NCBI RefSeq assembly: GCF_019977735.1
Contig: NZ_AP025018.1
Location: 7,320,580 to 7,384,579 of the forward strand
Length of the DNA: 64,000 nt
DNA from: Calothrix sp. PCC 7716
Lineage (GTDB): Bacteria; Cyanobacteriota; Cyanobacteriia; Cyanobacteriales; Nostocaceae
Direction of reading: 5' to 3'
In this document: positions 1 through 64,000 of the stretch, piece after piece
How positions within the stretch are numbered: the stretch's first letter is position 1
Layout of the letters: every line of letters begins with the position of its first letter
Translations under genes and position numbers: made by a program
Notes under the pieces: model-generated
Told to the model about the DNA's origin: nothing
Database searches by the model: none
The model's input: the letters and a program-made list of their open reading frames with translations, nothing else

Positions 1-593
1 CGTCCAATTTCAATTACCATCCCGTTAAAAAAGCTAGCCAACAAAAACCACAAACCGTTTAATGGAAATGGGGTGCCAGAAACCAACCAATCGCAGGCAG
101 TACCATAAAAATTAATTAGAGGCATAATTAGCATATGGCTCAACATATAAATTACAGGATTTGCTTTTAGCCACTTCGCTACAAAAAACTCTTGGCTCAT
201 TAACCCGATATAAAGCCAAACTCCACCCAACACCAATGCTAACCAAGGTGATAAATAAAAACTTGCACTCAACTGAATTAAGGCGCCAAAAATACTTACC
301 CAACCTAATTCATCTAAACTTACTAATCCTCTAGGAACGGGACGATAAGAACGGTAGCGCGCGTCTTCTGAAAAATCTTTAAATTCATCTGCTATCCGCA
401 GTTGTAGAAAGAAAATAAAAATAGTAGTAAAGGCAACTAATAATGAAGATAAATTTGGTAGGCTGCCATTACCACGCAACAAACCAGAATAACCTACCGC
501 AGAACCACTAAAAACTGCGATTAATATCCCGTTTTTAAAAACAGGAAAACGTTCTTTTTGATAAATCCACCATCGGTTTTGTTCTAGCAGCAT
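1..593 (-). CDS. UbiA-family prenyltransferase (partial, C-terminus beyond window)
   Basis: An open frame runs from an ATG at 593 off the left edge of the window, giving about 197 residues of an integral membrane protein with several hydrophobic helices. Residues about 60-85 contain LRIADEFKDFSED followed by RYRSYRPVPRGLVS, the aspartate-rich loop and basic RPxPRG stretch typical of UbiA-type aromatic or polyprenyl transferases, in which the Asp residues bind Mg-diphosphate. Family membership is fairly secure; the substrate cannot be told. Its ATG directly abuts the stop of the upstream gene (594-596), so it is probably the last gene seen of a minus-strand operon starting with the radical SAM gene at 3213. 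The C-terminal half is missing from the window. Confidence 0.8.
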   Translation of the reverse strand, partial: MLLEQNRWWIYQKERFPVFKNGILIAVFSGSAVGYSGLLRGNGSLPNLSSLLVAFTTIFIFFLQLRIADEFKDFSEDARYRSYRPVPRGLVSLDELGWVSIFGALIQLSASFYLSPWLALVLGGVWLYIGLMSQEFFVAKWLKANPVIYMLSHMLIMPLINFYGTACDWLVSGTPFPLNGLWFLLASFFNGMVIEIG

Positions 594-1025
594 TTATTCA
601 CTTCCTTCTGACTTAGCTCTCACAGTCAACTGAGCTTCTGCAATTTCTTCGTCATTCCAACCTTGCGCTCTGAGTCTGCTAGTAATTTGAGTTTCACTCC
701 AACCTTGCTTGATACCTTTTTCTATATAATCAATCAAAGAAATACTTTGAGGAGTTAGTGAAATATTCTGCTCCCTAAGAGCATCACTTCTTATTTCTGT
801 TGAATTATTTGGTACAAGAGTTCGCCCCAATAAATTTTCAATAACTTCGAGCGTTACCGAACCAAGAAGCCAGCAAAGAGGAATCCAAACTACTAAACTA
901 ATTCCGAGAGTGCAAAAAAGTGATACCTGAATTATTAACAATGCAGGCTGAATTCCACCAGACATTAAAGCCAGGGAACCAAATACAATGGGGATGCCTA
1001 TTAAAATTTTTATAAATCGTCTCAT
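594..1025 (-). CDS. small membrane protein of unknown function
   Basis: This 143-residue protein has two predicted N-terminal membrane helices (about residues 7-25 and 28-60), then a soluble tail. The tail ends in a helical segment starting LIDYIEKGIKQGWSETQI and continuing to GWNDEEIAEAQ, which resembles short C-terminal helix-pair domains of the SHOCT kind and repeats the motif G-W-x-(E/D)-x-(E/Q)-I. It lies 12 bp downstream of the duplicated membrane protein gene and directly upstream of the UbiA-family gene, so it is likely co-transcribed with both. I do not recognise a named family. No catalytic motif is visible; a scaffold or accessory role for the neighbouring membrane enzymes is only inference. 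Confidence 0.6.
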   Translation of the reverse strand: MRRFIKILIGIPIVFGSLALMSGGIQPALLIIQVSLFCTLGISLVVWIPLCWLLGSVTLEVIENLLGRTLVPNNSTEIRSDALREQNISLTPQSISLIDYIEKGIKQGWSETQITSRLRAQGWNDEEIAEAQLTVRAKSEGSE

Positions 1026-1037
1026 TTCCGATGCTTC

Positions 1038-2066
1038 CTATAAATTATTATCTAGAATATTTTCCCAATAACGTATAAAGGCAATCATTAATGCCATATA
1101 AAAAGGAACGGCAAATGCAATTTCAATAGGTATTTTTAAAACAGGCATAAACACACCTGTATAAAAATGTTGAGCGCTTTCACTATATACTCTAAAGCCA
1201 TTTCTAATAAATGTTGCTTCAATTGGTATAGCTAAAGATGTAGTAATACTCAATGCAATTAAAAATCTGTAAAGCATGGGAAAATGGCTAAAGAATTTTC
1301 CGACTAAAACAGCTGTTATACCGATTACGACAATCCAAATTCCAGGAATAAATAAGCTGATATCGTGGAAAATATATGACCACTGGGGAAATTTTTGATT
1401 TACCGCCATTGGTTCTACCATGACTTCAAATAAAAAGATACCTATGAAAGCAATTGTAATATCACGCAGCCATTTTCGACGTTTTAAAGGTACTAATGGT
1501 ACATCATCAATTACAAAACTCCAGTACTTATAGAAGCTAATAATCAAACCTGTAAACACGGGTGTGTAGTAGAAAATCTCTATTGGAACTCTGAAAATAA
1601 AAATGCCAGACACAACTTTGTTAACTTCTGGCGAGTAACCCCGTAAATTAATATTCACAGCCCATATTTCTAACGGTACAATTAAAAATGTCAAGATTCC
1701 CAAATAAATAAGAAATCTCTGTGACTCTTTCACATGGGGAAGTAACTTATCAATTACTAACACAGTAGTTAAAATCAAAGAAGTCCAACCAATTGTTAAA
1801 ATCCAGCTAACATCATGATATAAATAAGCCCACTCACCCATTCTATGATTTTTCCACATGGGCGCCGTAAACATTTCAAATATCAACACCCCCACAGCCA
1901 TAATACCAAACCGTTGCCACATTTTATCTTTAACTTTTGGCAAGAAAAACATACTTACTGCAAACCCCAAAGCAATAAATAATTCAAATATAATAATTGG
2001 CAGAGTTGGAGTCTTATCAAAATTGCATGTTGCAAGTATTGGAACCAGAGAAAAATCTGAAATCAT
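1038..2066 (-). CDS. polytopic membrane protein with tandem internal duplication, unknown function
   Basis: The start is placed at the ATG at 2066, four bases after the stop of the radical SAM gene; a longer frame from 2132 would overlap that gene by about 60 bp. The product is about 342 residues and largely hydrophobic. It consists of two homologous halves of about 145 residues. Half 1 has FEMFTAPMW, WAYLYHDVSW, PLEIW, RGYSPE and VPIEIFYYTP; half 2 has FEVMVEPMA, WSYIFHDISL, PIEATF, GFRVYSE and IPIEIAFAVP. The shared pattern E-x4-P-M, W-(A/S)-Y-x2-H-D-x-S and (V/I)-P-I-E-I suggests conserved polar residues within membrane helices, as in an intramembrane enzyme or carrier. I do not recognise the family. 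The neighbours (radical SAM, UbiA) hint at lipid or isoprenoid modification. Confidence 0.75.
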   Translation of the reverse strand: MISDFSLVPILATCNFDKTPTLPIIIFELFIALGFAVSMFFLPKVKDKMWQRFGIMAVGVLIFEMFTAPMWKNHRMGEWAYLYHDVSWILTIGWTSLILTTVLVIDKLLPHVKESQRFLIYLGILTFLIVPLEIWAVNINLRGYSPEVNKVVSGIFIFRVPIEIFYYTPVFTGLIISFYKYWSFVIDDVPLVPLKRRKWLRDITIAFIGIFLFEVMVEPMAVNQKFPQWSYIFHDISLFIPGIWIVVIGITAVLVGKFFSHFPMLYRFLIALSITTSLAIPIEATFIRNGFRVYSESAQHFYTGVFMPVLKIPIEIAFAVPFYMALMIAFIRYWENILDNNL

Positions 2067-2070
2067 AGTT

Positions 2071-3213
2071 TTACTTTCCACCAGAGACAACTTCTTTTTG
2101 TCGATATTGTGAATCTTTAATTTTGCACCCACCCCATTTAGACTGACAAAATTCAGGTAAAGTCGTTAACCTATCCCATATTTTCCAAAGTGGTTCTTGC
2201 AGAATATTGCCAAACTTAGCATGATTAAAATCGCAGGACATAATATCCCCGTAAGGAGAAGTATAAAAGTAGCTAGTACCACACGAACAACCAACACTTC
2301 GGTAGCTGCTAAAATAGGCAAAGAAAACAACTCCAGGATAACTATTATCTAAATTATATTTTTTCGCAGAATTAATCATAGACTCTACCCAATCTTGATT
2401 ATCAACTAAATCTAAACGTTCCTGATATCTTCCACTGGGTAACGCATCAAAAACTAAAACTTCATGAATTCCTATTTGTTTTCCTAACTCTACAATTCTA
2501 TCTAATTCTCCATCTTCATAAGATTCTGGAGTCATGGTAGTAGAAATTCCACAAGAAAACCCTAACTGTTTTGCTTTGCGTATTCCTTGAATAGCTTTAT
2601 CAAATAAACCTGGCTTTTGCCGAAACTTATCATGCTTTTCTGCTGTAGCAGCATCAATACTAATATAAACACTATCCAAACCAGCTTTTTTTAACTCTGT
2701 TGCTCGCTCAAATAAATTCCACCCGTTAGTAAATAATATAGTAGTCGCAAGACTTTTATTCACAGAGCTAATAATTTCGGGTAAATCCTCTCGCATTAAT
2801 GGTTCACCACCAACAAAATTAATTACAGAAACTCCTAAATCTTGAGCATCTTGAATTAATTTCTGTGACTGTTCAAGGCTTAAAATATTTCTATGTGCTT
2901 CTTCCACAGCCGAAAAGAAACTGCAATGCTCACAAGTCGCATTACAAATATCATTCACGGCAAAACTCATCATGTTGGGTAAATTCTTATTTTGAATTGT
3001 TCTATATAAAGCCCTAGAAATAAAATTTGCTGAAGGTTTACTGAACAAAGCTGGTGTTGACAAGGAATAAACAGGATAACCTTGCCGAAAATGAATAATT
3101 TTATTGTGGTTCAGATAAATTTGATAAAGAATTGTTACAAAATCTGTACTATAATTAAGTGCCCTAGTCGCAGTAAACCATTTAAGACGTAAATTCGTTA
3201 GCAAAGAGTTCAT
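2071..3213 (-). CDS. radical SAM/SPASM-like enzyme
   Basis: This 380-residue protein carries the radical SAM cluster motif CNATCEHCSFF near residue 88, with the Cx3Cx2C spacing that binds the 4Fe-4S cluster cleaving S-adenosylmethionine. It continues with the expected GGEP motif (FVGGEPLMRED) and the TNG strand motif (LFTNGWN). The C-terminal part has more cysteines (VGCSCGTSYFYTSPYGDIMS, then CDFNHAKFGN and a final GGCKIKD), which look like a SPASM-type auxiliary cluster region. Such enzymes modify peptides or small molecules by radical chemistry; the substrate here is unknown. It is the first gene of a tight minus-strand set with the duplicated membrane protein and the UbiA-family enzyme, which points to membrane lipid or isoprenoid chemistry (inference). 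Confidence 0.85.
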   Translation of the reverse strand: MNSLLTNLRLKWFTATRALNYSTDFVTILYQIYLNHNKIIHFRQGYPVYSLSTPALFSKPSANFISRALYRTIQNKNLPNMMSFAVNDICNATCEHCSFFSAVEEAHRNILSLEQSQKLIQDAQDLGVSVINFVGGEPLMREDLPEIISSVNKSLATTILFTNGWNLFERATELKKAGLDSVYISIDAATAEKHDKFRQKPGLFDKAIQGIRKAKQLGFSCGISTTMTPESYEDGELDRIVELGKQIGIHEVLVFDALPSGRYQERLDLVDNQDWVESMINSAKKYNLDNSYPGVVFFAYFSSYRSVGCSCGTSYFYTSPYGDIMSCDFNHAKFGNILQEPLWKIWDRLTTLPEFCQSKWGGCKIKDSQYRQKEVVSGGK

Positions 3214-3248
3214 ACGTATTCACTGATATTTTAAATCTCTGAAATAAC

Positions 3249-3277
3249 GTAGAGACGCGATTTCGGAGCGTCTCTAC
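3249..3277. repeat. GTAGAGACG/CGTCTCTAC palindromic repeat
   Basis: The arms GTAGAGACGC and GCGTCTCTAC flank a short loop, forming a hairpin between the radical SAM gene and the tandem repeat. Two more copies of this family occur at 6560-6589 and 6945-6972. It is an intergenic dispersed repeat, possibly acting as a transcription terminator or RNA stem. Confidence 0.8.
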
Positions 3278-3406
3278 AAATGATTACAGGATGCAAATTA
3301 ATTTTAATCAGTGTAAGTCTAAAAAAGATACTTTCTAATATCTTAAGAATATTTTTACTTTCTTTTAGTAAAATGTAACGGAATAAACTTGAAATAATCT
3401 CATGGT

Positions 3407-3510
3407 TGGAACGGGCAAGGATGCCCATTCCACAAGATGGATATACAAGATAGATAGACAAGATGGATATACAAGATGGATATACAAGATGGATAGACAA
3501 GATGGATAAT
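3407..3510. repeat. GGGCAAGGATGCCC repeat followed by six 13-bp tandem units
   Basis: A copy of the dispersed element GGAACGGGCAAGGATGCCC with the tail ATTCCACAAGA is followed directly by six units of the 13-mer CAAGATGGATATA (starts at 3433, 3446, 3459, 3472, 3485 and 3498; the second and fifth read GATAGA at the end). The first unit overlaps the CACAAGATGG tail of the dispersed element, so the array seems to have grown from it. No coding potential is evident. Confidence 0.85.
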
Positions 3511-3528
3511 TCAATTTTTGGAAGTTTT

Positions 3529-4041
3529 TTAGCAAAATATAGTGTTAATTTTGCTAAGACTTGCCCAGGTTTTATCACCAACGGCACCATCGGTAGTTAA
3601 ACCCGCACGTTTTTGTAGAGCTTTTACAGCGGTTTCAGTTCCAGCACCAAATTTACCGTCAATAATGCCTTTATAATAACCTTCAAGGGACATGCGTTCT
3701 TGAATAAGATTTACTAAATCACCTTGACTGCCTTTTTTGAGAACGGGTAAACCTACAGGCGCCCCTTTGTACAAAGATTTCCAGGTAGTATCACCAACTA
3801 TACCGTCATGTGTGAGAAACATTTGGTTTTGAAAGAGTTTTACCGCGTCGGTTGTTTTGGCGCCAAATATGCCATCAATAACTTCTTCGCCAGGAAATAC
3901 ACAGGTGCCTTTATTATCTAAATGTACAAAGACATGATATTGAAATAATAATTTTTGTAACTCTTTGACAGCTTCACCTTTGGCGCCTTGTTTTAGAATA
4001 GGTTTATTGAGTGGTGTTAAAGTATTAATTGTAGTTGTCAT
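3529..4041 (-). CDS. tandem peptidoglycan-binding (PG_binding_1) protein
   Basis: The 170-residue product contains two PG_binding_1-type domains. The first (about 14-90) has PILKQGAKGEAVKELQKLL, DGIFGAKTTDAVKLFQ and DGIVGDTTWKSL; the second (about 97-165) has PVLKKGSQGDLVNLIQ, DGKFGAGTETAVKALQ and DGAVGDKTWASL. This three-helix fold binds cell-wall peptidoglycan in lytic enzymes and exported proteins. There is no obvious signal peptide and no catalytic domain, so it may act as a bare binding module or use another export route. The first domain carries an insertion of about 12 residues (HLDNKGTCVF region). The gene lies 100 bp downstream of a paralogue at 4142-4651 in the same direction. Confidence 0.85.
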   Translation of the reverse strand: MTTTINTLTPLNKPILKQGAKGEAVKELQKLLFQYHVFVHLDNKGTCVFPGEEVIDGIFGAKTTDAVKLFQNQMFLTHDGIVGDTTWKSLYKGAPVGLPVLKKGSQGDLVNLIQERMSLEGYYKGIIDGKFGAGTETAVKALQKRAGLTTDGAVGDKTWASLSKINTIFC

Positions 4042-4141
4042 GATTTTTACTCTGGTGGTGACTATGGTGGTGAATATATATTTATAATCAAATTCGATTT
4101 GATTTATTCCGCAAACAAAATCTTAGAAACCCGGTTTCTTT

Positions 4142-4820: not shown

Positions 4821-6128
4821 ATGACCGCTTCCCAAGTAGCTTACAAATCTTTAATTACAATTGCCCAACAAACCCGTTCGGCAGCACTTTCTTTGGCAGT
4901 ACTTTCGACTGAACAACGTAACCAAGCTATAGACACTATTGCTTTAGCCTTAGAATCAGCGCGTGATGAAATAATCAAAGCAAATATTGCTGACTGTGAA
5001 GCTGCTGTTGTTGATGGTATTGCCAAACCGCTTTATAAACGGTTGCAGTTAGATGAACATAAATTAAGAGATGCCATTACAGGTGTACGTGATGTCGGTA
5101 AGCTTGCTGACCCTGTAGGACATGTACAAATTCATCGCGAACTTGATACTGGATTAATTTTGAAGCGGGTAACTTGTCCGTTAGGAGTGTTGGGAATTAT
5201 TTTTGAAGCACGTCCTGAAGCTGCGATTCAAATTGTCTCACTCGCAATCAAATCAGGGAACAGTGTTATTCTCAAATGCGGTAAAGAAGCAGTACGCTCA
5301 TGCGAAGCTATAGTTAAAGCCATAAAACAAGGTTTAGCCCAGACTGCTGTAAACCCCGATGCAGTGCAGCTACTAACAACACGTGAAGAAACCTTAGAGC
5401 TACTCAAGTTAGATAAATATGTAGATTTAATTATTCCACGCGGTTCTAATTCATTTGTACGATTCGTTCAAGAAAATACTCGCATTCCGGTACTTGGACA
5501 CGCAGACGGTGTTTGCCATCTATATATAGATAAAGCAGCAGATATCGACAAAGCTATTACCATCGCTGTAGACGCAAAAACTCACTATCCTGCCGCATGT
5601 AACGCTATTGAAACAATGCTTGTTCATGCTGAAGTGGCGCCAACCTTTTTACCAAAAGTCTCAACAGCATTAGAGAATATGGGTGTTGAGTTACGGGGAG
5701 ACGAGCGAACTCGTGAAATTTTACCTAATATAACTACACCCACCGACTGGCAAACCGAATACAGCGATTTGATTTTAGCCATAAAAATTGTAGATAGCCT
5801 AGAGCAAGCAATTGAGCATATCAACAATTACGGTTCTAAGCACACTGATGCAATTATTACCGAAGACCCCAACGCTGCTTCTACTTTTTTAGCTTTAGTA
5901 AATGCCGCAGGTGTATATCATAACTGTTCCACCCGCTTTGCAGATGGTTTCCGTTACGGATTCGGCGCCGAAGTTGGTATCAGCACACAGCAAATGCCAC
6001 CACGTGGACCCGTTGGTTTAGAAGGTTTAGTAACCTACAAATATCAAATGACTGGTAACGGACATATTGCTGCTAATTATACAGGCGCCAGTGCCAAACC
6101 TTTCACACACCGTGACTTGAAAAACTAG
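4821..6128 (+). CDS. proA: gamma-glutamyl phosphate reductase (glutamate-5-semialdehyde dehydrogenase)
   Basis: ProA reduces gamma-glutamyl phosphate with NADPH to glutamate-5-semialdehyde, the second step of proline synthesis, in the cytosol. The 435-residue product spans the whole family length. Recognisable segments are the N-terminal helical part, the cofactor region [14 protein letters not shown], the strand [12 protein letters not shown], the catalytic cysteine near residue 260 in [13 protein letters not shown], and the C-terminal [18 protein letters not shown] block. The start at 4821 is the first ATG of the homologous region. No proB is adjacent, which is common in cyanobacteria. A hairpin repeat starts at the stop codon and may end transcription. 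Confidence 0.97.
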
Positions 6129-6190: not shown

Positions 6191-6193
6191 ATT

Positions 6194-50905: not shown

Positions 50906-52815
50906 TCCACCTGAGTCAATATACTCATTGGCAACCGAATTACCAAATTCAAGGAAACTATTCTCAGTTGTCCCGTTGCGTAAGCTAGAGGAGGCTGTTG
51001 GCCTAGGCTGAAAGAAAGAGTGTCGGGCTGAACCTTTCACCCTCTTACTGATTGCGTTCCAGTATGACCAGACGTGCTTCTTGGGTTCCTTACCTTCGTA
51101 GGCGGTTCTGGCTGGAACGCTCTCAGAGTAGTTCATTGCACGGCGTGCAAGTACTAATGCTGCAGAACAACCTGAATTCATCCCGTAAGTGGACATAAAT
51201 TTTGCCATGCCAATTAGAGATGAGTACGCAGGATTAACGGTAATTAATTTAATTCCTAATTTAAAGCATCTTGAGGAAAGTAATTCATAAAAACGCCGAT
51301 AGGCAAAACCAGAAATCATCCGATTATAACGTTTATGTTTGGCGCCATTATTTAGTTGTGCTTTTTTAGCATCAAAATCTAATTCTTCAATAACAATGGG
51401 GCATTTAAAAGCAAGTGAAGCGGTTGTCAATTCTGTGACGACTGATGCTAAGACTGCCTCTGTTTGATTATGGGACAAACTATGAAGATTAAATTTAATG
51501 TCTCCAAATCGTTTGGGATTGCCATCAGCATTTACTTTACACCATGCAACCGAGTTGATATTTAAATCTACACCGATACAACCCAACATGACTGAATCAG
51601 ATGTGATGGGTCGATATACATCAACTGTAATATGTACCTGCCAGACACCATATTTATGTTGAATTATCCGGTAAGTAATCGCTTGTCCACATGCCCATGC
51701 TTGTCTAATTTCTTTGTCACCATAGCCATTTAGATTAATTGGTATTTCTACATACTCACCATACTTCGCTTCTAAAGCATAAGGCACACGAATTTTTAAT
51801 ATGTCAAGAGAATCTTTCTCGAAACCGATAATTAATTGACAAACTTGATTCCCGTTTGACTCGTCCTTACTGCCAACAAAATAAATGGTTTCTTTATTGC
51901 CTAAATTCACGTGCAATTGTTTTGATTTTAAATGTTTAAGCTGAGACCTGTACTTATGTAACTTGCGTTTTTGATGATGGAGCTTATTTTTCGCACTCTG
52001 GTAATAGGTGCCTGTATCGCGTCCAAAAGCTCTCGATGATGCTTGGTCAAATTGGGGTTTATATTTTGATGGTATTTTTGCTTTTTTACCTGGCTTTGCA
52101 GTTTGATTATATTTAACGACTGCTTGTAAATATTCAATATGCTTTTTTACTTTCTTTTCGAGGGCATCGACTGAAGCTTTTAAAGATTTTATTTTCCCTT
52201 CAAGAGTTTTTATATGTCGTGCAGATGATTCTTTCGAGCTTTTGATTTCGCCTTCTATAAATGTAATAATACTCGAAGCTTGACGCTTATTAATTGCAAA
52301 CCTATCTTGCAGGGTCTTATTCAAAGAAGTCAACTTTTGATTTTCAAGCAATCCTTTAAGACTAAATATTGATGCCGACATCGAAATGGCTGCATAGTCT
52401 GCCAAAAACAAACCTGAATTGGTATCTGTATGTATTTGCTTTACATAAGTTTGCTTTCTTAACGGCATTTAATACACCCTTTTATATCAATTCCACGACT
52501 TTAATTATTATATATTTATTATTATATATTTTACTCGCTTCGAGTCAATTAAGAATTATTACAAATGATGTTGAAGTAAGGAGGAAGAAGGAATTCGTAA
52601 TAGCTAATAAAAATGCGCGTTCTGATGTCCTTGCTTCAATCCCACTTTTTTAAAGGTGGGTACTTAGATGCGAATTTCTTCGTGAATAATACATACTTAT
52701 TTTTCGGAGTTTATTATGTATAAATATTTACTACTGAATCATTATCCTCAGAATTATCGAGATTTTAAATCAATAATCCTATGAAATCCTATGATTTTGG
52801 GTTACTGCTGATAAC
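50755..52815 (-). mobile_element. IS200/IS605-related element carrying a TnpB-related gene only
   Basis: The limits are inferred from where the DUF4347 gene is interrupted: its left part is readable to about 50752 and its right part from about 52817, leaving about 2.05 kb. The element encodes only the TnpB-related protein (50864-52468) and no tnpA transposase, like the IS1341 kind. A GGGTTA/TAACCC hairpin at about 52798-52816 and a CCCACTTT/AAAGGTGGG hairpin near 52641 lie at the tnpB 5' side; a CCATC/GATGG hairpin near 50838-50852 lies beyond the 3' side, where omega RNA is usually encoded. The exact ends and target tetranucleotide were not determined. Confidence 0.7.
50864..52468 (-). CDS. 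TnpB-related RuvC-like protein without zinc ribbon
   Basis: The 534-residue protein has an N-terminal region with a long coiled coil (about 60-190), a beta-rich wedge-type region (about 200-285) and a RuvC-like C-terminal domain. RuvC-I Asp is near residue 301 in CIGVDLNINSVAWCKV, RuvC-II Glu near 361 in PIVIEELDFDAKK. The segment expected to hold the third acid reads NPAYSSLIGMAKFMSTYGM and NSGCSAALVLARRAMNYSE, with no Asp, and the CxxC zinc ribbon of canonical TnpB is absent. This is the TnpB-related accessory protein group. Canonical TnpB are RNA-guided nucleases; whether this one cuts DNA is uncertain. The last 60 residues are low in similarity and may be read from omega-RNA-type sequence. 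Confidence 0.85.
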   Translation of the reverse strand: MPLRKQTYVKQIHTDTNSGLFLADYAAISMSASIFSLKGLLENQKLTSLNKTLQDRFAINKRQASSIITFIEGEIKSSKESSARHIKTLEGKIKSLKASVDALEKKVKKHIEYLQAVVKYNQTAKPGKKAKIPSKYKPQFDQASSRAFGRDTGTYYQSAKNKLHHQKRKLHKYRSQLKHLKSKQLHVNLGNKETIYFVGSKDESNGNQVCQLIIGFEKDSLDILKIRVPYALEAKYGEYVEIPINLNGYGDKEIRQAWACGQAITYRIIQHKYGVWQVHITVDVYRPITSDSVMLGCIGVDLNINSVAWCKVNADGNPKRFGDIKFNLHSLSHNQTEAVLASVVTELTTASLAFKCPIVIEELDFDAKKAQLNNGAKHKRYNRMISGFAYRRFYELLSSRCFKLGIKLITVNPAYSSLIGMAKFMSTYGMNSGCSAALVLARRAMNYSESVPARTAYEGKEPKKHVWSYWNAISKRVKGSARHSFFQPRPTASSSLRNGTTENSFLEFGNSVANEYIDSGGLNYPNEQTFASPR

Positions 52816-55708
52816 CCTTGCTCAATGCGCTGACATTCTTATCTACGGTTGCCGTGTTGCTTCCAAGGGATGTACCGATATTTTAAAACCCCTGCACGCA
52901 TTGACGGGAGCAAGTATCGCTGCATCAAGTCAAGAAGTCGGTAAAGGCAAATGGGAACTTGATAAACAAATTGGCGATGTTACCGCAGCCTTGGCATTTA
53001 CGTCCCAAGTACAACAAAGTTATGCAGGTACTCTTAGTGCTGGTTTTGCCCTTAGCAACAACACTCTAATTTCTTTTGATACTGGAAATCCCAGTAATAA
53101 TACCAGTACTATCCCAATTACTGGTTTAGGGACAGATAGCCTATTAAGTATAGACTTTAGACCCCAAAACGGGAAGTTGTATGGAATTGCTGCTGATGGT
53201 GCGGGTGGTGTCAAACTTTACGTTATCAGTATTCAGACCGGAGCAGCTACTCAAGTTGGAACATCAGCCTCATTCGTCGATGCTAGTGGGGCGCCCATTG
53301 CCATCAACAGAAATGCCAGCTTTGGGATTGATTTCAACCCAACCGTAGATCGTATTCGCGTTGTAAATTCCGATGGTTTAAACTTCCGCATTAACCCAAA
53401 TAATGGGGCAGCAGTTGATGGCAACGCGACTGCAGCAGGGAACCAACTAGACGCTAATATCAGCGGTGGTACTACTACAGTTGATGCCACTGCCTACACG
53501 AACAATGTTCCTAATGCTACGGTAACTACACAATATACCCTGGATGCAAATAGGAACGCGCTATTTATCCAGAACCCACCTAATAATGGTACTCAAACGT
53601 CAGTACTGCCAATAACTCTAGGTGGCGCCCCATTAGACTTTACAGCTGCCAATGGGTTTGACATTCCATCAGGCGTGAATGTCACTACATCGAATGCTCC
53701 AGCTACTGGACAGGCATTTAGCGCCCTCACTGTTGGTGGTCGGACTGGGCTATATGGGATTGAACTATCTACTGGTGTTGCCACGTTAATTGGGGCGATT
53801 GGTTCGGGTACAGTTCCAGTCCAAGGCTTCGCAGTTCAAAGTTCGGCTGTTGCTAATAGTACACCGCTCATCGGAATCAATAGATCGGGACAATTACTCC
53901 GCTTTAATAGTGCTACACCCGGTACAGCTACCAGTGTGGCAATTACTGGACTAGTTACAAGCGAGACGCTGGTAGGTATTGATTTTCGTCCAGCAACAGG
54001 GCAACTATTCGGCTTAGGTGTCAACAGTACCAACGGTTCGAGTAGTTTGTACATTATTGATCCACAAACAGGAGCCGCTACAACAGTTGGTACAGTTACT
54101 GATGCCGCAGGTAGTCCAGTTTCATTGGCAGGTAGTACTCAGTTTGGTATCGACTTTAATCCGACCGTAGATCGCATCCGCATCGTCACCAACACCGGAT
54201 TAAACTTTCGCGTCAATCCCAACAATGGCGCCTTCGTTGATGGGGATACTGTGACAGCAGGCACTCAGCCAGATGGCAGAATTAATGGCAGTACTACTAC
54301 AGTCGATGCCACTGCTTACACTAATAGCTTTGGTGGTGCTACTGTTACAACCCAATACACGTTGGATGCAAACAGCGACAGGCTATTTATCCAAAACCCA
54401 CCCAACAATGGTACTCAGACAATACCATTGGCAGTAACTCTTAACGGTAGCCCACTTAATTTTGATGCCGTTAACGGCTTTGATATTCCTTCTACCGTGC
54501 GGACAACTGCATCAAATGCACCGACATCCGGACTAGGTTTCGCAGCTTTAACGGTTGCTGGCGCCACTAATCTTTATACGATTGACCTCTTAACTGGTGC
54601 TGCAACCAATCTCGGCGCCATTGGTTCAGCTACAACGGGACTAATCGGCTTAACCGCTGCTGAAACCCCTATTAATCCCACCCTTTCTACCAACTTTGCC
54701 TCTAACGGCAGAGCAGTTACCGCAATTGGGGGTAATTCTCCAAGCTTCGTGCAGTTTTCCCTAACCAGAAAGGAAAACGCATCTGTTAACGAACTCGTTG
54801 CTTTCAATGTTGATGACGAGCTAGGTAGTATTAATGGCATTGCTCCTGGCGCCACAGGTTATCTCGAAGCTGCTATAGCCCGCTCGCGCGTTATTTTCTC
54901 TACAATTGCTAACAATCCTAACGGTTTTGGAAACGGACAATCGAGCATTCTAGATTTTGGCGCAAATGCACGTTTCTCTACCTTTTTAATCCAAAACGGT
55001 AGCCTTGATGGGTTACGAGCAGGACAAGTACCAAACAGTAGCGTTATTTTCAGCAATCAAACTTCGCTACGGGTAAGTAACGCGATTGCCACTGGCGCCA
55101 CCTTCAGCTTTGAGGACAACCCCAGTAACAACAGTGTCTTCAATGACGCAGTGGTACAGGTAGGTTTGGTTAATCAAGGCGCCGCAGTAGTATCAGCTTT
55201 ACAAAGTCAGGGACAAGGAGAATTGCTCGATTTGCGTTCTCTCACAGGACAAGTTAATGCCACTTTTACTATCAATCGCGAAGCAGCGTTCGATAATTCC
55301 GTTGGGTTCTATCGTGTCGTAAATCGGGACGGAGGAATAGATACTAATGGCGATGGAACGACGGATATTCTGCCGGGAACAGCAGGTTACACCCAAGCAG
55401 CTATAAATAATCGCGTAGCTTCTATTGACTTGAGGGTGGGGAACCAACAGACAGCGAATATTACAGGACAGTTTACGGGTGGCTCTATTTACGTTCCCTT
55501 CTTAATTGCAAACGGAACAGTGGCTGAAGTTGTCAGCGGGCAGAAGTTAAATGACGTGTACTTGCCGTTTTTAGGAGCGAATGCCGATAGAGTCGATCAT
55601 GTTCGTCTATTAGGCAATAATACCTTTGGCTTCGAGGATTTGTCAGGTGGAGGGGACAGGGACTTCAATGATGTCATTGTTCAAGTCAATTTCTCTAACA
55701 ACGCCTAG
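52781..55708 (+). pseudogene. C-terminal part of the DUF4347/DUF4394/DUF4114 exoprotein
   Basis: The 975-codon frame begins a few codons inside the inserted element and continues the DUF4347 domain with ADILIYGCRVASKG and LHALTGASIAASSQEVGKG. Two DUF4394 domains follow (about 85-350 and 355-625), each with GIDFNPTVDRIR, NFRxNPNNGA and QNPPNNGTQT. The end carries two DUF4114-type modules (about 650-790 and 800-975), the last with LLGNNTFGFEDLSGGGDRDF and NDVIVQVNF, a calcium-type acidic loop. The intact protein would have been a large secreted or surface protein. Without its N-terminus this part has no start signal; whether it is still translated from 52781 is unknown. Confidence 0.8.
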
Positions 55709-58453: not shown

Positions 58454-58460
58454 AAAGCAT

Positions 58461-59996
58461 ATGAACAATAATCATTATGATGTAATTATTGTTGGTACAG
58501 GCGCCGGTGGAGCTACTTTAGCATATCAACTGGCGCCAAGCGGCAAAAAAATTTTAGTACTCGAACGTGGTGATTTTTTACCAAGAGAAAAAGCAAACTG
58601 GAATCCGCAACAAGTTTTACAAGCATCTATTTACCGTAATGCTGAGAATTGGAGTGACAAACACGGTAAACCTATCAACACCAATACACATTATTATGTA
58701 GGTGGAAATACCAAGTTTTACGGTGGCGCCTTATTTAGATTCCGTGAAAAAGATTTTGAGCAAGTTACTCACCACGATGGTGTTTCTCCAGAGTGGATAT
58801 TGAAATATCGTGACTTGGCACCTTATTATACGATTGCAGAAAAACTCTATGAAGTACATGGACAGAGCGGTTTAGACCCTACTGAACCATTACAAGAAGC
58901 TTACCCCTTTCCTGCTATTACCCATGAACCTCATATTCAAGCTATCTATGAGCGTTTAAAAGATAAAAACTTTCATCCTTTTTATTTACCTCTATCAATC
59001 AAACTTAATCAAACCAATTCCTTACTAAGTGCTTGTATTCGCTGTGATACATGCGATGGTTTTCCGTGTTTTCTCAACGCCAAAGCTGACGCGGATATTA
59101 ACTGTATGCGTCCAGCAATGAAACATTCAAATGTAACTTTAATAACTCGTGCAAAAGTTTCACACTTACATACTAGTGCATCCGGGAAAGAAGTTACTGG
59201 TGTTAATGTAGAAGTTGCTGGAAAACCAAGATATTACTCAGCTAATATAATTGTACTTGCTTGCGGCGCCGTTAATAGTGCGATTTTGCTGTTAAAATCT
59301 GCTAACCACCAACACCCCAATGGGTTAGCGAATAGCTCAGGTTTGGTTGGACGGAATTACATGGCACATAAGTTTGGAGTCGTTTTAGCATTATCAACAC
59401 AAGCGAATCCGACAGTATTTCAAAAAACAATGGGATTTAATGATTTTTATTGGGGTGAACAAGATTTTCCATACCCAATGGGTAGCGTACAGATGCTAGG
59501 TAACATTCATAAAGAAAGAGTACTTGCCAATGCTTCATTTCTACCTTGCTTTATAGCAGATAAAATTGCAAATCATTGTGTCCCTTGGTTACTAATAACA
59601 GAAGACTTACCTGATTCTAATAATCGTGTTTATCTCAAAAATGACAAAATACGTTTGGACTATACCAGTAATAATAATAAAGCATTTAACCGTTTGATGA
59701 AACGCTGGATTGAAGTTTTAAAATCTATTAAGGACAGATATAAATTAAGACAATTATCTATATATCATGCCGAGAAAATGTCTATAAAAGAAGTCGGACA
59801 TCAATGTGGTACATGTAGATTTGGGGAAGACCCTAAAACCTCTGTACTCGATATTAATTGCCGCACGCATGATATTGATAATTTATATATTGTAGATAGC
59901 AGCTTTTTCCCTTCAAGTACTGCAATAAATCCATCATTAACTATTATGGCAAATGCTTTGCGTGTAGGTGAGCATTTACTTACTAGATTGACATAA
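58461..59996 (+). CDS. GMC-family FAD-dependent oxidoreductase
   Basis: The start is the ATG at 58461, 7 bases after the SDR stop; the longer frame from 58422 overlaps that gene. The 511-residue protein has the FAD motif VIIVGTGAGGATLAYQLAPS, the GMC segment YYVGGNTKFYGGALFRFRE, a Cys-rich loop CIRCDTCDGFPCFLNAKADA (about residue 198), IIVLACGAVNSAILLLKSA and the C-terminal active-site block VGHQCGTCRFGEDPKTSV with NPSLTIMANALRVGEHLL. GMC enzymes oxidise alcohols or glucosides. The substrate is unknown, but pairing with an SDR and neighbouring glycosyltransferases suggests a lipid or sugar alcohol. Confidence 0.9.
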   Translation: MNNNHYDVIIVGTGAGGATLAYQLAPSGKKILVLERGDFLPREKANWNPQQVLQASIYRNAENWSDKHGKPINTNTHYYVGGNTKFYGGALFRFREKDFEQVTHHDGVSPEWILKYRDLAPYYTIAEKLYEVHGQSGLDPTEPLQEAYPFPAITHEPHIQAIYERLKDKNFHPFYLPLSIKLNQTNSLLSACIRCDTCDGFPCFLNAKADADINCMRPAMKHSNVTLITRAKVSHLHTSASGKEVTGVNVEVAGKPRYYSANIIVLACGAVNSAILLLKSANHQHPNGLANSSGLVGRNYMAHKFGVVLALSTQANPTVFQKTMGFNDFYWGEQDFPYPMGSVQMLGNIHKERVLANASFLPCFIADKIANHCVPWLLITEDLPDSNNRVYLKNDKIRLDYTSNNNKAFNRLMKRWIEVLKSIKDRYKLRQLSIYHAEKMSIKEVGHQCGTCRFGEDPKTSVLDINCRTHDIDNLYIVDSSFFPSSTAINPSLTIMANALRVGEHLLTRLT

Positions 59997-60011
59997 ATAT
60001 AGTAGCGAGTC

Positions 60012-60036
60012 GTATGGTGGGCAGTGCCCACCCTAC
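60012..60036. repeat. GGTGGGCAGTGCCCACC palindrome
   Basis: Copy of the 6128 family between the convergent ends of the GMC oxidoreductase (59996) and the glycosyltransferase gene (60042). Confidence 0.85.
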
Positions 60037-60041
60037 AAATG

Positions 60042-61946
60042 CTAAAAGTATGAGTGCTGCTTTTTGTTATATGAGGTGTAGAATGATTTCCAATCGTTGA
60101 GATATATGTAACGTAGCAACTGCCATGTTCCTTCTGAGCCAAATTGACCTAGTTGTGCTAATCTAGATGCATGTTCGGACATTTTTGCTAAAGCAGATTC
60201 TGGTAATACTGCCATACAATACATTGCACACAGTAAAGATTTTTGTACTGATTCCATAACTTTATTATTCGTGAATAGGGTTGATAAACCTCTATCTTCA
60301 GAATAATCAGGAATACATAAACCGTTGAGGGCAACAGTGAAGTTATTAGTAGCGTTTACAATTAAATCTTCGATTGTTCTAGCTATTTGTTCGTCTTTTT
60401 CAATCTTGAAGCTGCCAATTCTGTCTCCTGGACAGTAAAAATGTCTTCTAGTTCCTTTTTCCATTGCGACTAATGGAACTCCACAAGCTGCTGCTTCTTC
60501 GTGTGTAATACCATATGTTTCTGTGTCTGAAGCGCTAACAAAGAAACCATGACGCAAACGAACAAAGTTATATAGCGTTGGTAAGAGGTGATTTGGCACT
60601 AGTCCTGTGACTGTTACGCTGTCTCCAAATCTTTTTTCTAACTCAGATGCAGCATATCCGGCGCCGATAAAGATAAAATGAACTTTATCTTTCATGCCTT
60701 TACACTGAAGCAACTGTTCGTAAACATTTATCAAAATTGAAATATTCTTCTCGTCGCTTAACCGACCAACGTATAAAATACATCTTTTAGATATTTTCTC
60801 TGGGTTCGTGGCAATGTCTATTAATGCCAAAGCGCTTTTATTAGAAAGCATTTCTAATTCGTGTGCGTAGTTGACTCGTTCGACAAAAGTCTCTACAGAT
60901 GGTTGATAAACCTTAAACCGCGATAAATCACATCCTAATGGTAGCTCCCAAACAGGCGCCTTGATACAATATCTAGCTATATCCTCTGGCCGTGAAATAG
61001 TCACAGCATCACAACGGTTAACAAAAAGAGATACCTGTTGTTTGAGAAAAAATCTTAAAATATTAGCTAGAAGACCACCAATACCAACTAATGGGCTTTT
61101 TGGACATTCATCGCCTCTTCTAATAAAATCGTATGTTAGTTGTATTAAATTATGCGACCTTGAGTGTCTCAGATGGTTTACATACTTACTAACTTCTACT
61201 TCTAACTGTTTATACTTATCAGTAAATATAAGTTTGACTATCATTTTTACAGCTTTGACTATTAAATCTTGCAGTATTCCCAGTAATTCAAATAATCGAA
61301 AGAAAAAAAACGCAGATAACCCAGATTGTAAATAAGTCCAAAATTTCAATAAGAATGTTATACTCAAGTATTTTAACTTAGTTGATGCATAAATACCCCC
61401 TCTGGCGCTTTCTATAATTATTTTTAATATAAATTTTGAATCTATAAGCTTATAAAAGTCCAAAATAATACTTTTAAGATAGTTTGGAAAATAAGTATCT
61501 ACTTCTGTGAAGACTGTATTAATTAATTTTACTTTTTTACCTTTAGATTTCATAACTTTAGCAGCTATATAACCTGAAGTTTCGGTAGCTGTAAAAGTTC
61601 CAAATGTATGAATTATATCAGGATTCTCTTTTATAATATCTTGAATTATGCTGAGATGAATTGGAATTAAATCAACTAAGAAGGGGAAAACACTGGGTGG
61701 AGATAATGGAAAAAGCGCGCGAGTAGTAATATTAGGTTTACTTTGCTTAATAGTAACGTTAGAAAAGGGATGATATTGCTGTGTTTTTGTACCTAGACAG
61801 TAAACTATTAACTCAATATCAATATCTTTTGCTGATTGATTAATCCAGTCATTGACCATTTGTTGGAAACCAGTAGTACTACCTTCAACGGCGCCAGTCC
61901 CAAGATAATCAGCGCACATCACAACTTTGATTTTATTTGAATTCAT
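60042..61946 (-). CDS. GT4-like glycosyltransferase with a large hydrophobic insertion
   Basis: The 634-residue protein starts with a GT-B N-terminal half (VVMCADYLGTGAVEGSTTGF, IIHTFGTFTATETSGYIAAK). Residues about 165-290 form an unusual insertion rich in hydrophobic helices (FWTYLQSGLSAFFFFRLFEL). The second half is a typical GT4 domain with CILYVGRLSDEKNISILINV, VHFIFIGAGYAASELEKRFG, FVSASDTETYGITHEEAAAC and GVPLVAMEKGTRRHF, which includes the E-x7-E nucleotide-sugar motif. A C-terminal helical part (about 545-634) follows. The insertion may anchor the enzyme to a membrane. The end is convergent with the GMC oxidoreductase gene. Confidence 0.82.
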   Translation of the reverse strand: MNSNKIKVVMCADYLGTGAVEGSTTGFQQMVNDWINQSAKDIDIELIVYCLGTKTQQYHPFSNVTIKQSKPNITTRALFPLSPPSVFPFLVDLIPIHLSIIQDIIKENPDIIHTFGTFTATETSGYIAAKVMKSKGKKVKLINTVFTEVDTYFPNYLKSIILDFYKLIDSKFILKIIIESARGGIYASTKLKYLSITFLLKFWTYLQSGLSAFFFFRLFELLGILQDLIVKAVKMIVKLIFTDKYKQLEVEVSKYVNHLRHSRSHNLIQLTYDFIRRGDECPKSPLVGIGGLLANILRFFLKQQVSLFVNRCDAVTISRPEDIARYCIKAPVWELPLGCDLSRFKVYQPSVETFVERVNYAHELEMLSNKSALALIDIATNPEKISKRCILYVGRLSDEKNISILINVYEQLLQCKGMKDKVHFIFIGAGYAASELEKRFGDSVTVTGLVPNHLLPTLYNFVRLRHGFFVSASDTETYGITHEEAAACGVPLVAMEKGTRRHFYCPGDRIGSFKIEKDEQIARTIEDLIVNATNNFTVALNGLCIPDYSEDRGLSTLFTNNKVMESVQKSLLCAMYCMAVLPESALAKMSEHASRLAQLGQFGSEGTWQLLRYIYLNDWKSFYTSYNKKQHSYF

Positions 61947-61977
61947 AATTAATCACACTTTTATTAAAACATTCTCT

Positions 61978-62172
61978 CTTGTGGAGCGGGCATCCCTGCC
62001 CGCCTGAAATTTAGGAGACGGGCAAGGATGCCCATCCCACAAGATGCCCATCCCACAAGATGGTCTATGATGAAATAGATGGTCTATGATGAAATAGATG
62101 GTGTATGCCACTCAACTTTGATAGTTATAAGTTATGAGTACTTTCTACTCAGCACTCAGCACTCAGCACTTT
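61978..62172. repeat. composite of dispersed and 19-bp tandem repeats
   Basis: 61978-62060 holds two copies of the GGGCATCCCTGCCC/GGGCAAGGATGCCC family with TCCCACAAGATG tails. Then come two full and one partial 19-bp units GATGGTCTATGATGAAATA (starts 62059, 62078, 62097), and ACTCAGC copies at 62146-62170, which end eight bases before the epimerase stop. Confidence 0.8.
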
Positions 62173-62177
62173 ATACC

Positions 62178-63146
62178 TTATTGCTGCTGTAACCATTGTT
62201 TGGTTAACTGCATACCCTCGTCGAGGTTGATTTTGGGTTGGTAGTTTAGAAGATTTTTCGCTTTGGCAATTGAGTAAGCGTAAGGACGAGTCATAAAGTC
62301 TACTGACTCTGGTAATATATCAGCTTCTTTACGGAAGAGTTTTTGTCCTTGGTGACGCAGTTGTAAGAATAGTTTGATTTCGTCTTTGGGTAGTGAAAAT
62401 GGAGGCGCCAAGTTTACTGTTGCAGCCAAACGGGTAAAATATTCTTTCCAGGTGGTTTCACTTCCATCGGTGATGTTAAATATTTCGCCATATGGTTGTT
62501 TTTCGATGGCAAGAAATACAGCTTCCACAAGGTTATCTATATATACATGGTTCATTACACCCTTACCATCGTTGACGCAAGCGAACATATTTTGGCGCAT
62601 CATTGTGACAGGACGAACTACCCAAGGTATACTGCCTGGGCCATATACATCTCCTGCACGAATGATAACTACCCCAAATGATGGGTCGTTAAATTTGAGA
62701 ATGGCATCTTCTGCTTCAATTTTGGTTTGGCAGTAGGGATTATTATCACCCTTTAATTTGCCGTCTTCAGCGATGTTATTCAAGTAGTCGAACCCATACA
62801 CTAAAACGCTCGACATGTGAATAAAAGTTTTAGCACCAGCTTTTTTCGCTGCACGTGCTAAAGTTACGGTACCATCGACGTTAACTTTCTGAAAGTCTTT
62901 AAGCTTACCTCCTTCTTTGGTAATTTCGGCTGCGTGTAAAACTATATCTACACCCTGACAAGCTTTTTCAAGGATTGCGGAGTCATTAATATCACCAGTA
63001 ATTACGTCAATTCCTAGTTGGTTTTGTTTATTTTTATCTGGTGTTAATTGAAATCCCTTGACTTTCATTCCTCGCTGAATTGCGAGTTCTGCCGCACGCT
63101 GTCCGATACATTCGTTGATGCCAGTGATAAGTATGGTTTGATTCAT
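62178..63146 (-). CDS. NAD-dependent epimerase/dehydratase family protein
   Basis: The 322-residue protein is an extended SDR. It has a cofactor motif of the GxxGxxG type changed to TILITGINECIGQRAAELAI, so only part of the glycine pattern is kept. Further features are VDIVLHAAEITKEGG, the active-site serine in TFIHMSSVLVYGFDYLN and the YxxxK pair in NPYCQTKIEAEDAIL, plus GVVIIRAGDVYGPGSIPWVV. Members act on nucleotide sugars, sterols or other alcohols; VLHAAEITK and the GPGS block are shared with 3-beta-hydroxysteroid-type and sugar epimerases. It follows the DevC-type gene by 16 bases and is probably in the same operon. Confidence 0.88.
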   Translation of the reverse strand: MNQTILITGINECIGQRAAELAIQRGMKVKGFQLTPDKNKQNQLGIDVITGDINDSAILEKACQGVDIVLHAAEITKEGGKLKDFQKVNVDGTVTLARAAKKAGAKTFIHMSSVLVYGFDYLNNIAEDGKLKGDNNPYCQTKIEAEDAILKFNDPSFGVVIIRAGDVYGPGSIPWVVRPVTMMRQNMFACVNDGKGVMNHVYIDNLVEAVFLAIEKQPYGEIFNITDGSETTWKEYFTRLAATVNLAPPFSLPKDEIKLFLQLRHQGQKLFRKEADILPESVDFMTRPYAYSIAKAKNLLNYQPKINLDEGMQLTKQWLQQQ

Positions 63147-63162
63147 AAAGAAGAGTGAGTTG

Positions 63163-64000
63163 TTAGAAGATATCGGCAGGGTCAGCTAGACGTAATTTGT
63201 TAATGGCTAAAATACCAGAGATGAGACACATTAAAATTGTGGAAACAAACACAATTACCGCATTTTGAAAGGTCATCATTATTGGTAATTTGGTTGTATC
63301 CATTGCAAAGTCATATAAGCCGAGAGAAAATATGAAGCCTGGAAGATAACCTAAAATAGCTAAGATTATTGCTTGCTGCAAAACTACCGTTAATAAATAA
63401 TTATTCTCGTAACCAATAGCTTTTAAAGTCGCGTAAGCAACAAATTGGCTAGAAATATTGCTGTAAAGAATTTGATAGACTATTACTACCCCAACTACTG
63501 AACCCATTGTCAACATCAGGTTTAAAATAAAGCCTATAGGTGTTCTTGCAGCCCAATATTGCTTTTCGTAGCTATTAAATCCAAGTTTTGTGAAAACCCT
63601 GACATCACTAGGAAGGTTTTGACGTAGGTTTTTCAATGCTTTTTCGGGGTCGGCGCCTGGTTTTAGAGTAATTACACCTAAATCAATTCTATCAGATGGA
63701 CGACTAGCAAAAATCCTTAAAAAGGTTGAGTCGCTAACAATTAAATTTCCATCAACTCCGAACGAAGGACCAATACTAAATAAACCTCCTACTCTAACTC
63801 GATAACCAGTAGAGTTATTGAAAGGAAAAACTTCTACCATCACCGGGTTAGCTTTGTCTTGGCTAAATTGAAGAGGAATATCACCAAAGTAAGGTCGTGA
63901 GTCTCTGTCAAAAAGTATCACATCAGGAATTTTTAATTTATCCATATTACCTTCAACTTCAGGAAGGTTAATTACGGATTTTCCTGGTTCTACTCCTATA
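63163..64000 (-). CDS. devC: DevC-type ABC exporter permease (partial, N-terminus beyond window)
   Basis: The frame is open through the right window edge, giving about 279 C-terminal residues of a MacB/FtsX-type permease. The periplasmic region has KLKIPDVILFDRDSRPYFGD, DSTFLRIFASRPSDRIDLGV and FTKLGFNSYEKQYWAARTPI, followed by three membrane helices (FILNLMLTMGSVVGVVIVYQ, VVLQQAIILAILGYLPGFIF, AVIVFVSTILMCLISGILAI) and the LRLADPADIF ending. These match DevC proteins of DevBCA exporters, which with TolC export heterocyst glycolipids in Anabaena; several paralogues exist per genome with other cargo. An ATG at 63945 is internal because homologous sequence continues upstream (PGKSVINLPEVEGN). 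Confidence 0.85.
   Translation of the reverse strand, partial: IGVEPGKSVINLPEVEGNMDKLKIPDVILFDRDSRPYFGDIPLQFSQDKANPVMVEVFPFNNSTGYRVRVGGLFSIGPSFGVDGNLIVSDSTFLRIFASRPSDRIDLGVITLKPGADPEKALKNLRQNLPSDVRVFTKLGFNSYEKQYWAARTPIGFILNLMLTMGSVVGVVIVYQILYSNISSQFVAYATLKAIGYENNYLLTVVLQQAIILAILGYLPGFIFSLGLYDFAMDTTKLPIMMTFQNAVIVFVSTILMCLISGILAINKLRLADPADIF

Follow-up and report, generated by a model that had tools for sequence, protein, structure and literature searches.

The stretch of DNA analyzed here, 64,000 bp of Calothrix sp. PCC 7716 (contig NZ_AP025018.1, positions 7,320,580 to 7,384,579 of the forward strand; hereafter the window), raises the question of why it is filled with one six-base palindrome, GGCGCC, and free of the octamer GCGATCGC, the highly iterated palindrome (HIP) known as HIP1. 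An exact count gives 110 copies of GGCGCC, one per 582 bp at 39.05% GC, and zero copies of both HIP1 and CGATCG. These figures agree with a reading made without any database (the sequence-only reading), which had put the sites by eye at about 110, one per ~580 bp, against about four expected by chance at ~40% GC, and had not seen HIP1 once; the expectation from base counts is ~3.5. GGCGCC is the commonest of all 6-mers in the window and, in the k-mer check proposed by the same reading, did not fall near expectation but had the highest z of all (7.1, with 56.7 copies expected under a maximal-order Markov model). The Markov excess is merely 1.9-fold because GGCGCC itself supplies the 5-mers that feed the expectation; base and dinucleotide models were used instead. 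In a 264-kb sample of the genome that includes the window, the observed-to-expected ratio (O/E) of GGCGCC is 20.9 from dinucleotides and 34 from bases. The whole genome (12,367,066 bp in 10 contigs) holds 20,380 copies (one per 607 bp, 1,648 per Mb) and only 7 of the reversed-letter control CCGCGG. HIP1 is not at a similar density elsewhere in the genome: it occurs 66 times, compared with 64 for its reversed control, which is background. In the 264-kb sample O/E is 0.12 for GATC, 0.09 for GGCC and zero for CGATCG.

The flanks of GGCGCC vary, which makes the hexamer the unit, as had been proposed: in the window the base before it is T in 39 cases, C in 31, A in 29 and G in 11, and the base after it is A in 40, T in 33, G in 26 and C in 11, so that a preceding G and a following C are disfavored. 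Sites were also said to be spread through genes and gaps on both strands, and the first half of this statement stands, while the second has no meaning for a palindrome. Called open reading frames (ORFs) of the 264-kb sample contain 378 sites (1.84 per kb) and the DNA outside them 70 (1.21 per kb), a density which argues that translation is not the cause. The four smaller contigs C2–C5, of which ~20 kb each was sampled, have 6.5–15.5 sites per 10 kb. Within the 264 kb, 196 of 334 Gly-Ala codon pairs are written GGCGCC (2.4% expected from codon use), compared with 0 of 193 and 0 of 364 in relatives.

Replacement of HIP1 by GGCGCC, as the sequence-only reading had put it, is supported across the genome and equally across the genus, where the comparison with close relatives that it had called for was made. 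We surveyed 217 genomes of the family, 7 from the same genus and 210 others, using as a control in each genome the motif letters read backwards. All seven genus genomes have GGCGCC in abundance, with 7,475–20,380 copies (1,150–1,711 per Mb, genome sizes rounded), and HIP1 at 31–163 copies against reversed controls of 37–75. The other 210 contain 0–1,053 copies of GGCGCC (at most 111 per Mb), and the genome with the highest count has a still larger control (1,270). HIP1 there mostly numbers in the thousands, with low counts in G182 (30), G191 (574) and G194 (535). Besides PCC 7716 (G000), the genus sample includes Calothrix PCC 7103 (G061), Calothrix NIES-4105 (G063) and Dulcicalothrix desertica PCC 7102 (G060), and named loci from these three strains show 16.1–18.2 GGCGCC per 10 kb, compared with 0–1.7 in other named cyanobacterial loci. 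Elsewhere in the family, G071 (603 copies versus 87) and G194 (326 versus 9 genome-wide) lie above their controls; no GGCGCC excess was found in the 80 kb of G194 and 27 kb of G182, both low in HIP1, that were examined. The simplest view is that an ancestor acquired the trait, before these seven sampled species diverged.

In kind, this swap is not new. The passages of Elhai 2015 (PMC4390886) drawn on here name two Calothrix strains, PCC 7103 and D253, with GGCGCC as their alternate HIP, link this motif to two GrCGyC methyltransferases, report a damaged CGATCG methyltransferase, tie HIP1 to orphan methyltransferases (for CGATCG 5-methylcytosine, m5C, and for GATC) and hold that exceptional HIPs are sporadic and not found in clades. 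What is new is that the GGCGCC swap is conserved in every sampled member of this genus of filamentous cyanobacteria, to which PCC 7103 itself belongs, and this contradicts Elhai's statement for GGCGCC. In all seven genomes GGCGCC has the features of an alternate HIP, namely a density of ~1000–2000 per Mb, low HIP1 and a predicted matching methyltransferase; the sporadic occurrence in that account, an observation and not a definition, does not hold for a motif found in seven of seven genomes of one genus. With the two published strains the genus shares the hexamer, the loss of HIP1 and CGATCG, and the GrCGyC class of methyltransferase. It differs in the seven genomes covered, in a single orphan methyltransferase locus and in a nuclease searched for and not found, and the retention, codon-matched retention, one-base spectrum and one case of gain reported below go beyond that work. 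Like HIP1, GGCGCC occurs near once per kb throughout the genome and is linked to orphan methyltransferases; unlike HIP1, an over-represented octamer of other sequence, it is a hexamer without GATC. A literature search, with subscription papers largely outside its scope, found no further report of a GGCGCC HIP among the matches listed.

Methyltransferases were searched with PF00145, the PF01555 and PF02086 families lying outside this search, which gave 16 stretches in the PCC 7716 genome and 9–17 per genus genome. Clustering of the fetched matches, which covered neither the full-length matches G060:C4:342899, G063:C2:257137 and G061:C7:2457477 nor several fragments, produced two m5C methyltransferase clusters that occur in all seven genomes. 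Members of the first (370–398 amino acids) have a plasmid relative (52.5%) annotated with a Cfr10I/Bse634I-family nuclease, and we take this cluster to be, probably, the RCCGGY enzyme DmtD. The second is HindV-like (319–337 amino acids; G000:C1:10950497-10951489 in PCC 7716). Across the genus it is 83–92% identical to the PCC 7716 copy and 55.5% identical to a plasmid gene annotated hindVM; it matches PF00145 (E = 1.3e-62) and TIGR00675, and has the PCQ motif in all seven genomes. The R and G/A recognition residues of the M.BsaHI type, around the TL motif, are present in 13 of 13 enzymes (10 from the genus and 3 from outside); counted from T, their position differs by one from the wording of the relevant part of PMC2413257, with order and spacing in agreement. 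By these features the genus enzyme is predicted to act on GRCGYC. That same part of Neely and Roberts 2008 (PMC2413257) reports that M.BsaHI methylates the central C of GRCGYC, whereas Elhai 2015, in the passages cited, later gave the methylated base as known for no GrCGyC enzyme. HindVP belongs to Haemophilus influenzae Rd, in which RIMS-seq found GRCGYC at a p value short of the usual threshold, according to the section of PMC8565308 concerned.

Outside the genus this gene generally keeps a nuclease as its partner: in six of nine neighborhoods it adjoins an RE_HindVP-family nuclease gene, intact or split, two of which match PF09519 (E = 2e-154 and 9e-161), and the SPERR[FY] motif was seen at 21 of 27 distinct non-genus loci (25 of 33 when re-fetched stretches are included). 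Within the genus the motif was found in 0 of 53 stretches, and a search with a query protein found the RE_HindVP-family nuclease in 0 of 7 genomes, compared with 45 of 217 in the family, fragments included. The genus enzyme therefore resembles the M.HindV/M.BsaHI family in its identity to hindVM and its recognition residues, and differs from relatives that mostly lie beside RE_HindVP genes with SPERRF in that no partner nuclease of the kind required for a HindV type II restriction-modification system was found, and in a GGCGCC that is hugely enriched and not depleted. In six of the seven genomes the gene has the same syntenic position, adjoining a RuBisCO-like gene (PF00016 in PCC 7716) and a conserved gene of ~680 amino acids (shorter in G065). 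The seventh, G062, has an intact copy elsewhere, along with a gene fragment that lies at the end of C29 (a contig), close to the methyltransferase that also neighbors the gene in G060 and G061; the coordinates suggest that this fragment marks the same syntenic place. Further copies (~60% identity) are patchy, some of them on plasmid-size contigs, and since none was seen in G060 and G064, which both have the trait, a second copy is not needed.

A phylum-wide sample of 386 genomes, drawn from a larger group, includes some further genomes with thousands of GGCGCC and controls of similar order. One genome of the same order but another family, G284, has 9,489 copies versus a control of 2,450 at ~54% GC (in 75 kb) and carries a gene of M.HindV type (55% identity) with no SPERR nuclease motif found next to it; the gene is absent in the three congeners searched, which have far fewer GGCGCC. 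As the enriched unit of G284 is GGCGCY (GGCGCT/AGCGCC 6.2-fold, GGCGCC 3.8-fold) and GACGCC is enriched, not depleted, this is only a possible second case. In the 20 kb examined of G230, a congener of G284, the enriched words belong to another family, centered on CAGGCC and GGCCCTG. G420 has 2,493 GGCGCC against a control of 38, with an enrichment of HIP1 in the 25 kb examined (partly N) and no M.HindV-like gene (best match 1e-24).

We next consider whether the sites are protected. From each of six genus genomes 169–292 kb were aligned, mostly stretches around the methyltransferase, excluding alignments shorter than 300 bp, gapped hexamers and overlapping high-scoring segment pairs; the pooled counts for close and distant pairs re-use genomes and are not independent, so the main test was repeated on independent pairs. 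At 92.65% identity a fraction of 0.840 of the GGCGCC sites is retained, compared with 0.702 for all hexamers and 0.664 for other all-GC hexamers (rank 3 among the 3,880 hexamers that occur at least 120 times), and at 83.9% identity in 0.738 versus 0.407 and 0.434 (rank 1 of 3,694). Two independent close pairs retain 301 of 347 GGCGCC and 528 of 765 other all-GC hexamers (p = 7e-11), and a further independent-pair test gives 52 of 87 versus 99 of 277 (p = 1e-4). Synonymous third bases in distant pairs are also kept more often inside the motif than outside it (GCC 0.859 versus 0.496, GCG 0.893 versus 0.499, GGC 0.785 versus 0.512, CGC 0.740 versus 0.598). In independent close pairs with an identical preceding codon, the third base of GCC is retained in 149 of 152 cases within GGCGCC versus 346 of 414 after a non-Gly codon; for G063/G064 the figures are 28 of 29 and 31 of 77. 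GCC after another Gly codon comes close to the GGCGCC values (48 of 52 retained in close pairs, 27 of 36 in distant ones); when the preceding codon is identical this control, summed over GGT and GGA/GGG, falls to 6 of 9 and 1 of 6, compared with 499 of 512 and 305 of 316 in GGCGCC, few cases from pairs that are not independent.

Protection of this kind is what one would also see if GGCGCC were the selected binding site of a chromosome protein (for recombination, segregation or the nucleoid) and its methylation incidental. The hexamer is protected at synonymous sites, is present on the four smaller contigs and lies outside ORFs, where close pairs keep 34 of 43 GGCGCC versus 59 of 98 other all-GC hexamers. 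We nevertheless hold this explanation to be distinctly unlikely: orthologues of a matching orphan methyltransferase in all seven genomes would be a coincidence, and it is hard to imagine how the specificity of a protein and ~20,000 sites could change together.

The bases at which sites differ bear on methylation. Replacement of the third base, C3, by T (or of G4 by A on the other strand) accounts for most one-base differences, 55 of 78 for the independent close pairs and 14 of 19 for G063/G064, and GGTGCC/GGCACC far outnumbers every other partner state (182 of 258 in close pairs, 80 of 141 in distant ones). Lying at the base methylated by M.BsaHI, this skew fits methylation but falls short of proof of it. 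The same partner state would be expected if a Vsr-like very-short-patch repair of T:G mismatches at methylated C3 turned GGTGCC into GGCGCC. Such repair would leave the other bases unprotected, however, and GGTGCC is not depleted (dinucleotide O/E 1.2); with homologues of Vsr (PF03852) found in 0 of 7 genus and 1 of 217 family genomes, the known Vsr family is largely refuted, and we regard this explanation as very improbable.

The reading that we consider probable joins these results: GGCGCC would be the alternate HIP of this genus, the Calothrix PCC 7103/Dulcicalothrix clade, and a HindV-like-methylated mark that has replaced HIP1 in its role and is kept by a force acting on sites genome-wide. 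The orphan HindV-like enzyme would methylate the third base (GG-m5C-GCC), and the methylated hexamer would take over the part of methylated HIP1 as a dense methyl mark, which DNA repair, replication or chromosome machinery may read. Sites would be created and kept either by purifying selection for the mark or by a methyl-dependent repair bias. With GATC and CGATCG so strongly avoided here, HIP1 could not have lasted. The combination of the enzyme, no nuclease and background HIP1 was found only in the genus, which fits the idea, given in the part of Elhai 2015 used here, that loss of HIP1 opened the way.

Several points weigh against a HindV-like-methylated mark in the role of HIP1. The enzyme is not sufficient: 52 family genomes outside the genus carry this type (E < 1e-100; some contain internal stop codons) without a GGCGCC excess, at a median of 1.0 and a maximum of 42.6 copies per Mb versus 1,150–1,711 in the genus. 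HIP1 exceeds 1,000 copies in 51 of the 52, and the exception, G191, has the enzyme, 574 HIP1 and an interrupted nuclease gene, yet a single GGCGCC. The different methylase or repair context suggested by the sequence-only reading is partly supported: a matching methylase, of HindV/BsaHI type, is present in seven of seven genomes with no nuclease found in any, but its presence is not sufficient, and the repair proteins searched for, Vsr and MutH, were not found in the genus. GACGTC and GACGCC, which also fall within GRCGYC, are depleted in the genus, so enzyme specificity alone does not explain GGCGCC. The seven related genomes are one evolutionary event, and we know of no reader protein for GGCGCC. 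In G000/G063, C3-to-T makes up only 7 of 20 one-base differences. Its overall rate in GGCGCC, 0.0556 per site or ~0.028 per cytosine, exceeds the rate at other CpG (0.0196) by a factor of just ~1.4, so that protection of the remaining positions contributes as much to the C3 excess as deamination does; a contrast in frame 0 in the independent pairs (C3-to-T 9 of 158, C6-to-T 2 of 152) is not significant (p = 0.06). Finally, terminal branches carry 49 losses versus 8 gains, and ongoing gain is not shown.

This last skew would be expected if the force that made GGCGCC had stopped and the sites were now decaying relics. We find that improbable: when codons are matched, retention greatly exceeds the background in distant pairs as well, which indicates that sites are still protected, and slightly harmful losses not yet purged, or quick reversals, can each yield the same skew.

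Past gain, in turn, may be seen in a gene of the window. A 975-amino-acid ORF on the forward strand (52781–55708) has 88.2% DNA identity to a gene of Cyanomargarita calcarea and was likely acquired horizontally. It contains eight GGCGCC and no HIP1, whereas the Cyanomargarita gene has no GGCGCC and two HIP1. Three of the eight sites differ by one synonymous base: GGCGCC at 54227–54232 (GGCGCG in the relative), 54560–54565 (GGCGCT) and 54848–54853 (GGCGCA). At least four turn the residue after Gly into Ala, namely 53624–53629 (from GGTAGC, Gly-Ser), 54614–54619 (GGTGTA, Gly-Val), 55094–55099 (GGCTTC, Gly-Phe) and 55178–55183 (GGCACA, Gly-Thr); the eighth, at 53290–53295, corresponds to GGTAGC and lies beside a HIP1 that is missing in the window. 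Because 0 of 44 aligned hexamers from relatives read GGCGCC, gain on the window side is the simpler direction, as far as a few genes that are not independent can indicate. Conversion of HIP1 to GGCGCC in place found no support: 0 of 4 HIP1 sites of relatives aligned to the window read GGCGCC, the window having GCTATAGC (twice), CCCATTGC and GCGATTGC there.

A second view of gain comes from the remaining HIP1. Among the first 50 listed of the 66 HIP1 sites of the genome, at least 23 lie in three regions (G000:C1 at ~3265–3305, 4842–4920 and 6415–6431 kb). Stretches fetched from them, chosen for holding HIP1 (L265–L271), contain 22 HIP1 and mostly raised GATC (9–35 per 10 kb; 1.6 in L266, between two clusters). 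Around three of the four HIP1 clusters (L265, L269 and L270–L271) GGCGCC drops to 2.0–5.0 per 10 kb, compared with 16.5 genome-wide and 8.0–15.6 in four ordinary chromosome stretches; around the fourth (L267–L268) it reaches 12.0–14.2, with only a few poor kb. These stretches are probably acquired DNA at different stages of amelioration and would offer a natural clock for the gain of GGCGCC. Their composition also bears on the idea that GGCGCC is a DNA uptake signal or a mobile repeat, which its high density and restriction to the genus might suggest. The DNA uptake sequences of Neisseria and Pasteurella are likewise short motifs of very high copy number. Imported DNA should then be enriched in the motif, whereas here the presumed imports, an origin that we infer, are GGCGCC-poor in three of four clusters; GGCGCC moreover constrains synonymous coding sites, and its flanks vary freely. 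Of all the explanations weighed we give this one the least credence.

Gain of sites, some with amino-acid changes, as acquired DNA seems to show over time, would follow more directly from the model given in the relevant part of Elhai 2015 (PMC4390886), a ratchet in which G-m5C-dependent mismatch repair fixes each new GG-m5C-GCC up to about one per 1,000 bp and the sites have no function. The model requires methylation of the internal C, as M.BsaHI displays in the part of PMC2413257 cited above, and the one-base spectrum is compatible with it. Spacing is ambiguous. Across six stretches the coefficient of variation (CV) of the gaps is 0.84–1.21; two stretches are more even than random (the window, 0.031, and G065, 0.001, as fractions of simulations), and gaps below 150 bp are slightly scarce (261 versus 286 expected). 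None of the other four, however, is significantly more even, and one of them, G061, is spaced less evenly than random (CV 1.21, 0.995), which lends no support to regulated spacing as a general rule. Close neighbors are almost at chance frequency, though no drive is expected near an existing site, and near-random spacing speaks weakly against a drive that stops there. The required nicking enzyme is hypothetical, MutH homologues (PF02976) having been found in 0 of 7 genus genomes (2 of 217 in the family, one above the cut-off). Nor does the ratchet sit well with the 49 terminal-branch losses versus 8 gains, with protection of bases other than C3, which is not an obvious prediction, or with the absence from G060 and G064 of the second methyltransferase copy that Elhai's account gives for PCC 7103. 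We see in it a tentative alternative, somewhat unlikely as matters stand. A related proposal, which we consider unlikely, makes the enzyme the agent: a nuclease-free orphan methyltransferase would, through methylation-dependent repair bias, have spread its own functionless site since the ancestor of the genus, so that GGCGCC was written throughout the genome and newly acquired genes, and even into protein sequence (any residue to Ala after Gly).

What HIP1 is for has, to our knowledge, been an open question for decades. It becomes testable in a genus where another palindrome has taken its place, where there is a single candidate enzyme and where several strains (PCC 7103, NIES-4105 and D. desertica PCC 7102) are sequenced. 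Genus-wide persistence of GGCGCC also weakens one of the two arguments, in the portion of Elhai's paper considered here, for selection on HIP1 as such rather than on methylated sites of any kind.

By exact count the first bases of the 110 GGCGCC in the window are at 282, 1861, 3758, 3859, 3982, 4377, 4741, 5636, 5964, 6084, 6498, 6840, 8492, 9519, 9862, 10544, 11495, 11633, 11874, 11898, 12670, 13265, 13393, 13734, 14009, 14855, 14931, 15437, 16044, 16472, 16961, 17058, 17094, 17185, 18465, 19609, 21189, 22187, 23064, 23198, 23280, 24318, 24376, 25294, 25498, 26066, 26156, 26835, 27085, 27434, 28334, 28560, 29106, 29469, 29997, 30012, 30981, 32920, 33368, 34106, 34337, 34541, 35473, 36524, 37071, 37238, 37552, 37651, 38663, 38954, 39159, 41358, 41912, 42322, 42481, 42919, 43883, 44083, 44825, 45338, 47087, 47126, 47198, 48419, 48677, 49597, 50751, 51341, 53290, 53624, 54227, 54560, 54614, 54848, 55094, 55178, 56099, 56591, 57278, 57668, 58075, 58500, 58532, 58725, 59265, 60660, 60955, 61890, 62404 and 63652.

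Other short words of the window also depart from expectation. CGCGCG is a second over-represented palindrome, with 29 copies in the window and a 5.2-fold excess over dinucleotides in the 264-kb sample (5.7–8.5-fold in other genus samples); its retention, 0.667 in close and 0.479 in distant pairs, is below that of GGCGCC. Zero copies of GTGCAC, GTCGAC, GCATGC, CCATGG, TTCGAA and GAGCTC occur in the 264 kb, and GATC and GGCC stand at ~0.1 of expectation in samples of this genome and the genus, an extreme avoidance of many palindromes, CCGCGG with its 7 copies genome-wide among them, that may reflect encounters with numerous restriction systems, now or in the past. The words ACTCAGCACT and AGTGCTGAGT recur in parts of the window (TCAGCACT 20 times, AGTGCTGA 15 times) and are perhaps short tandem repeats.

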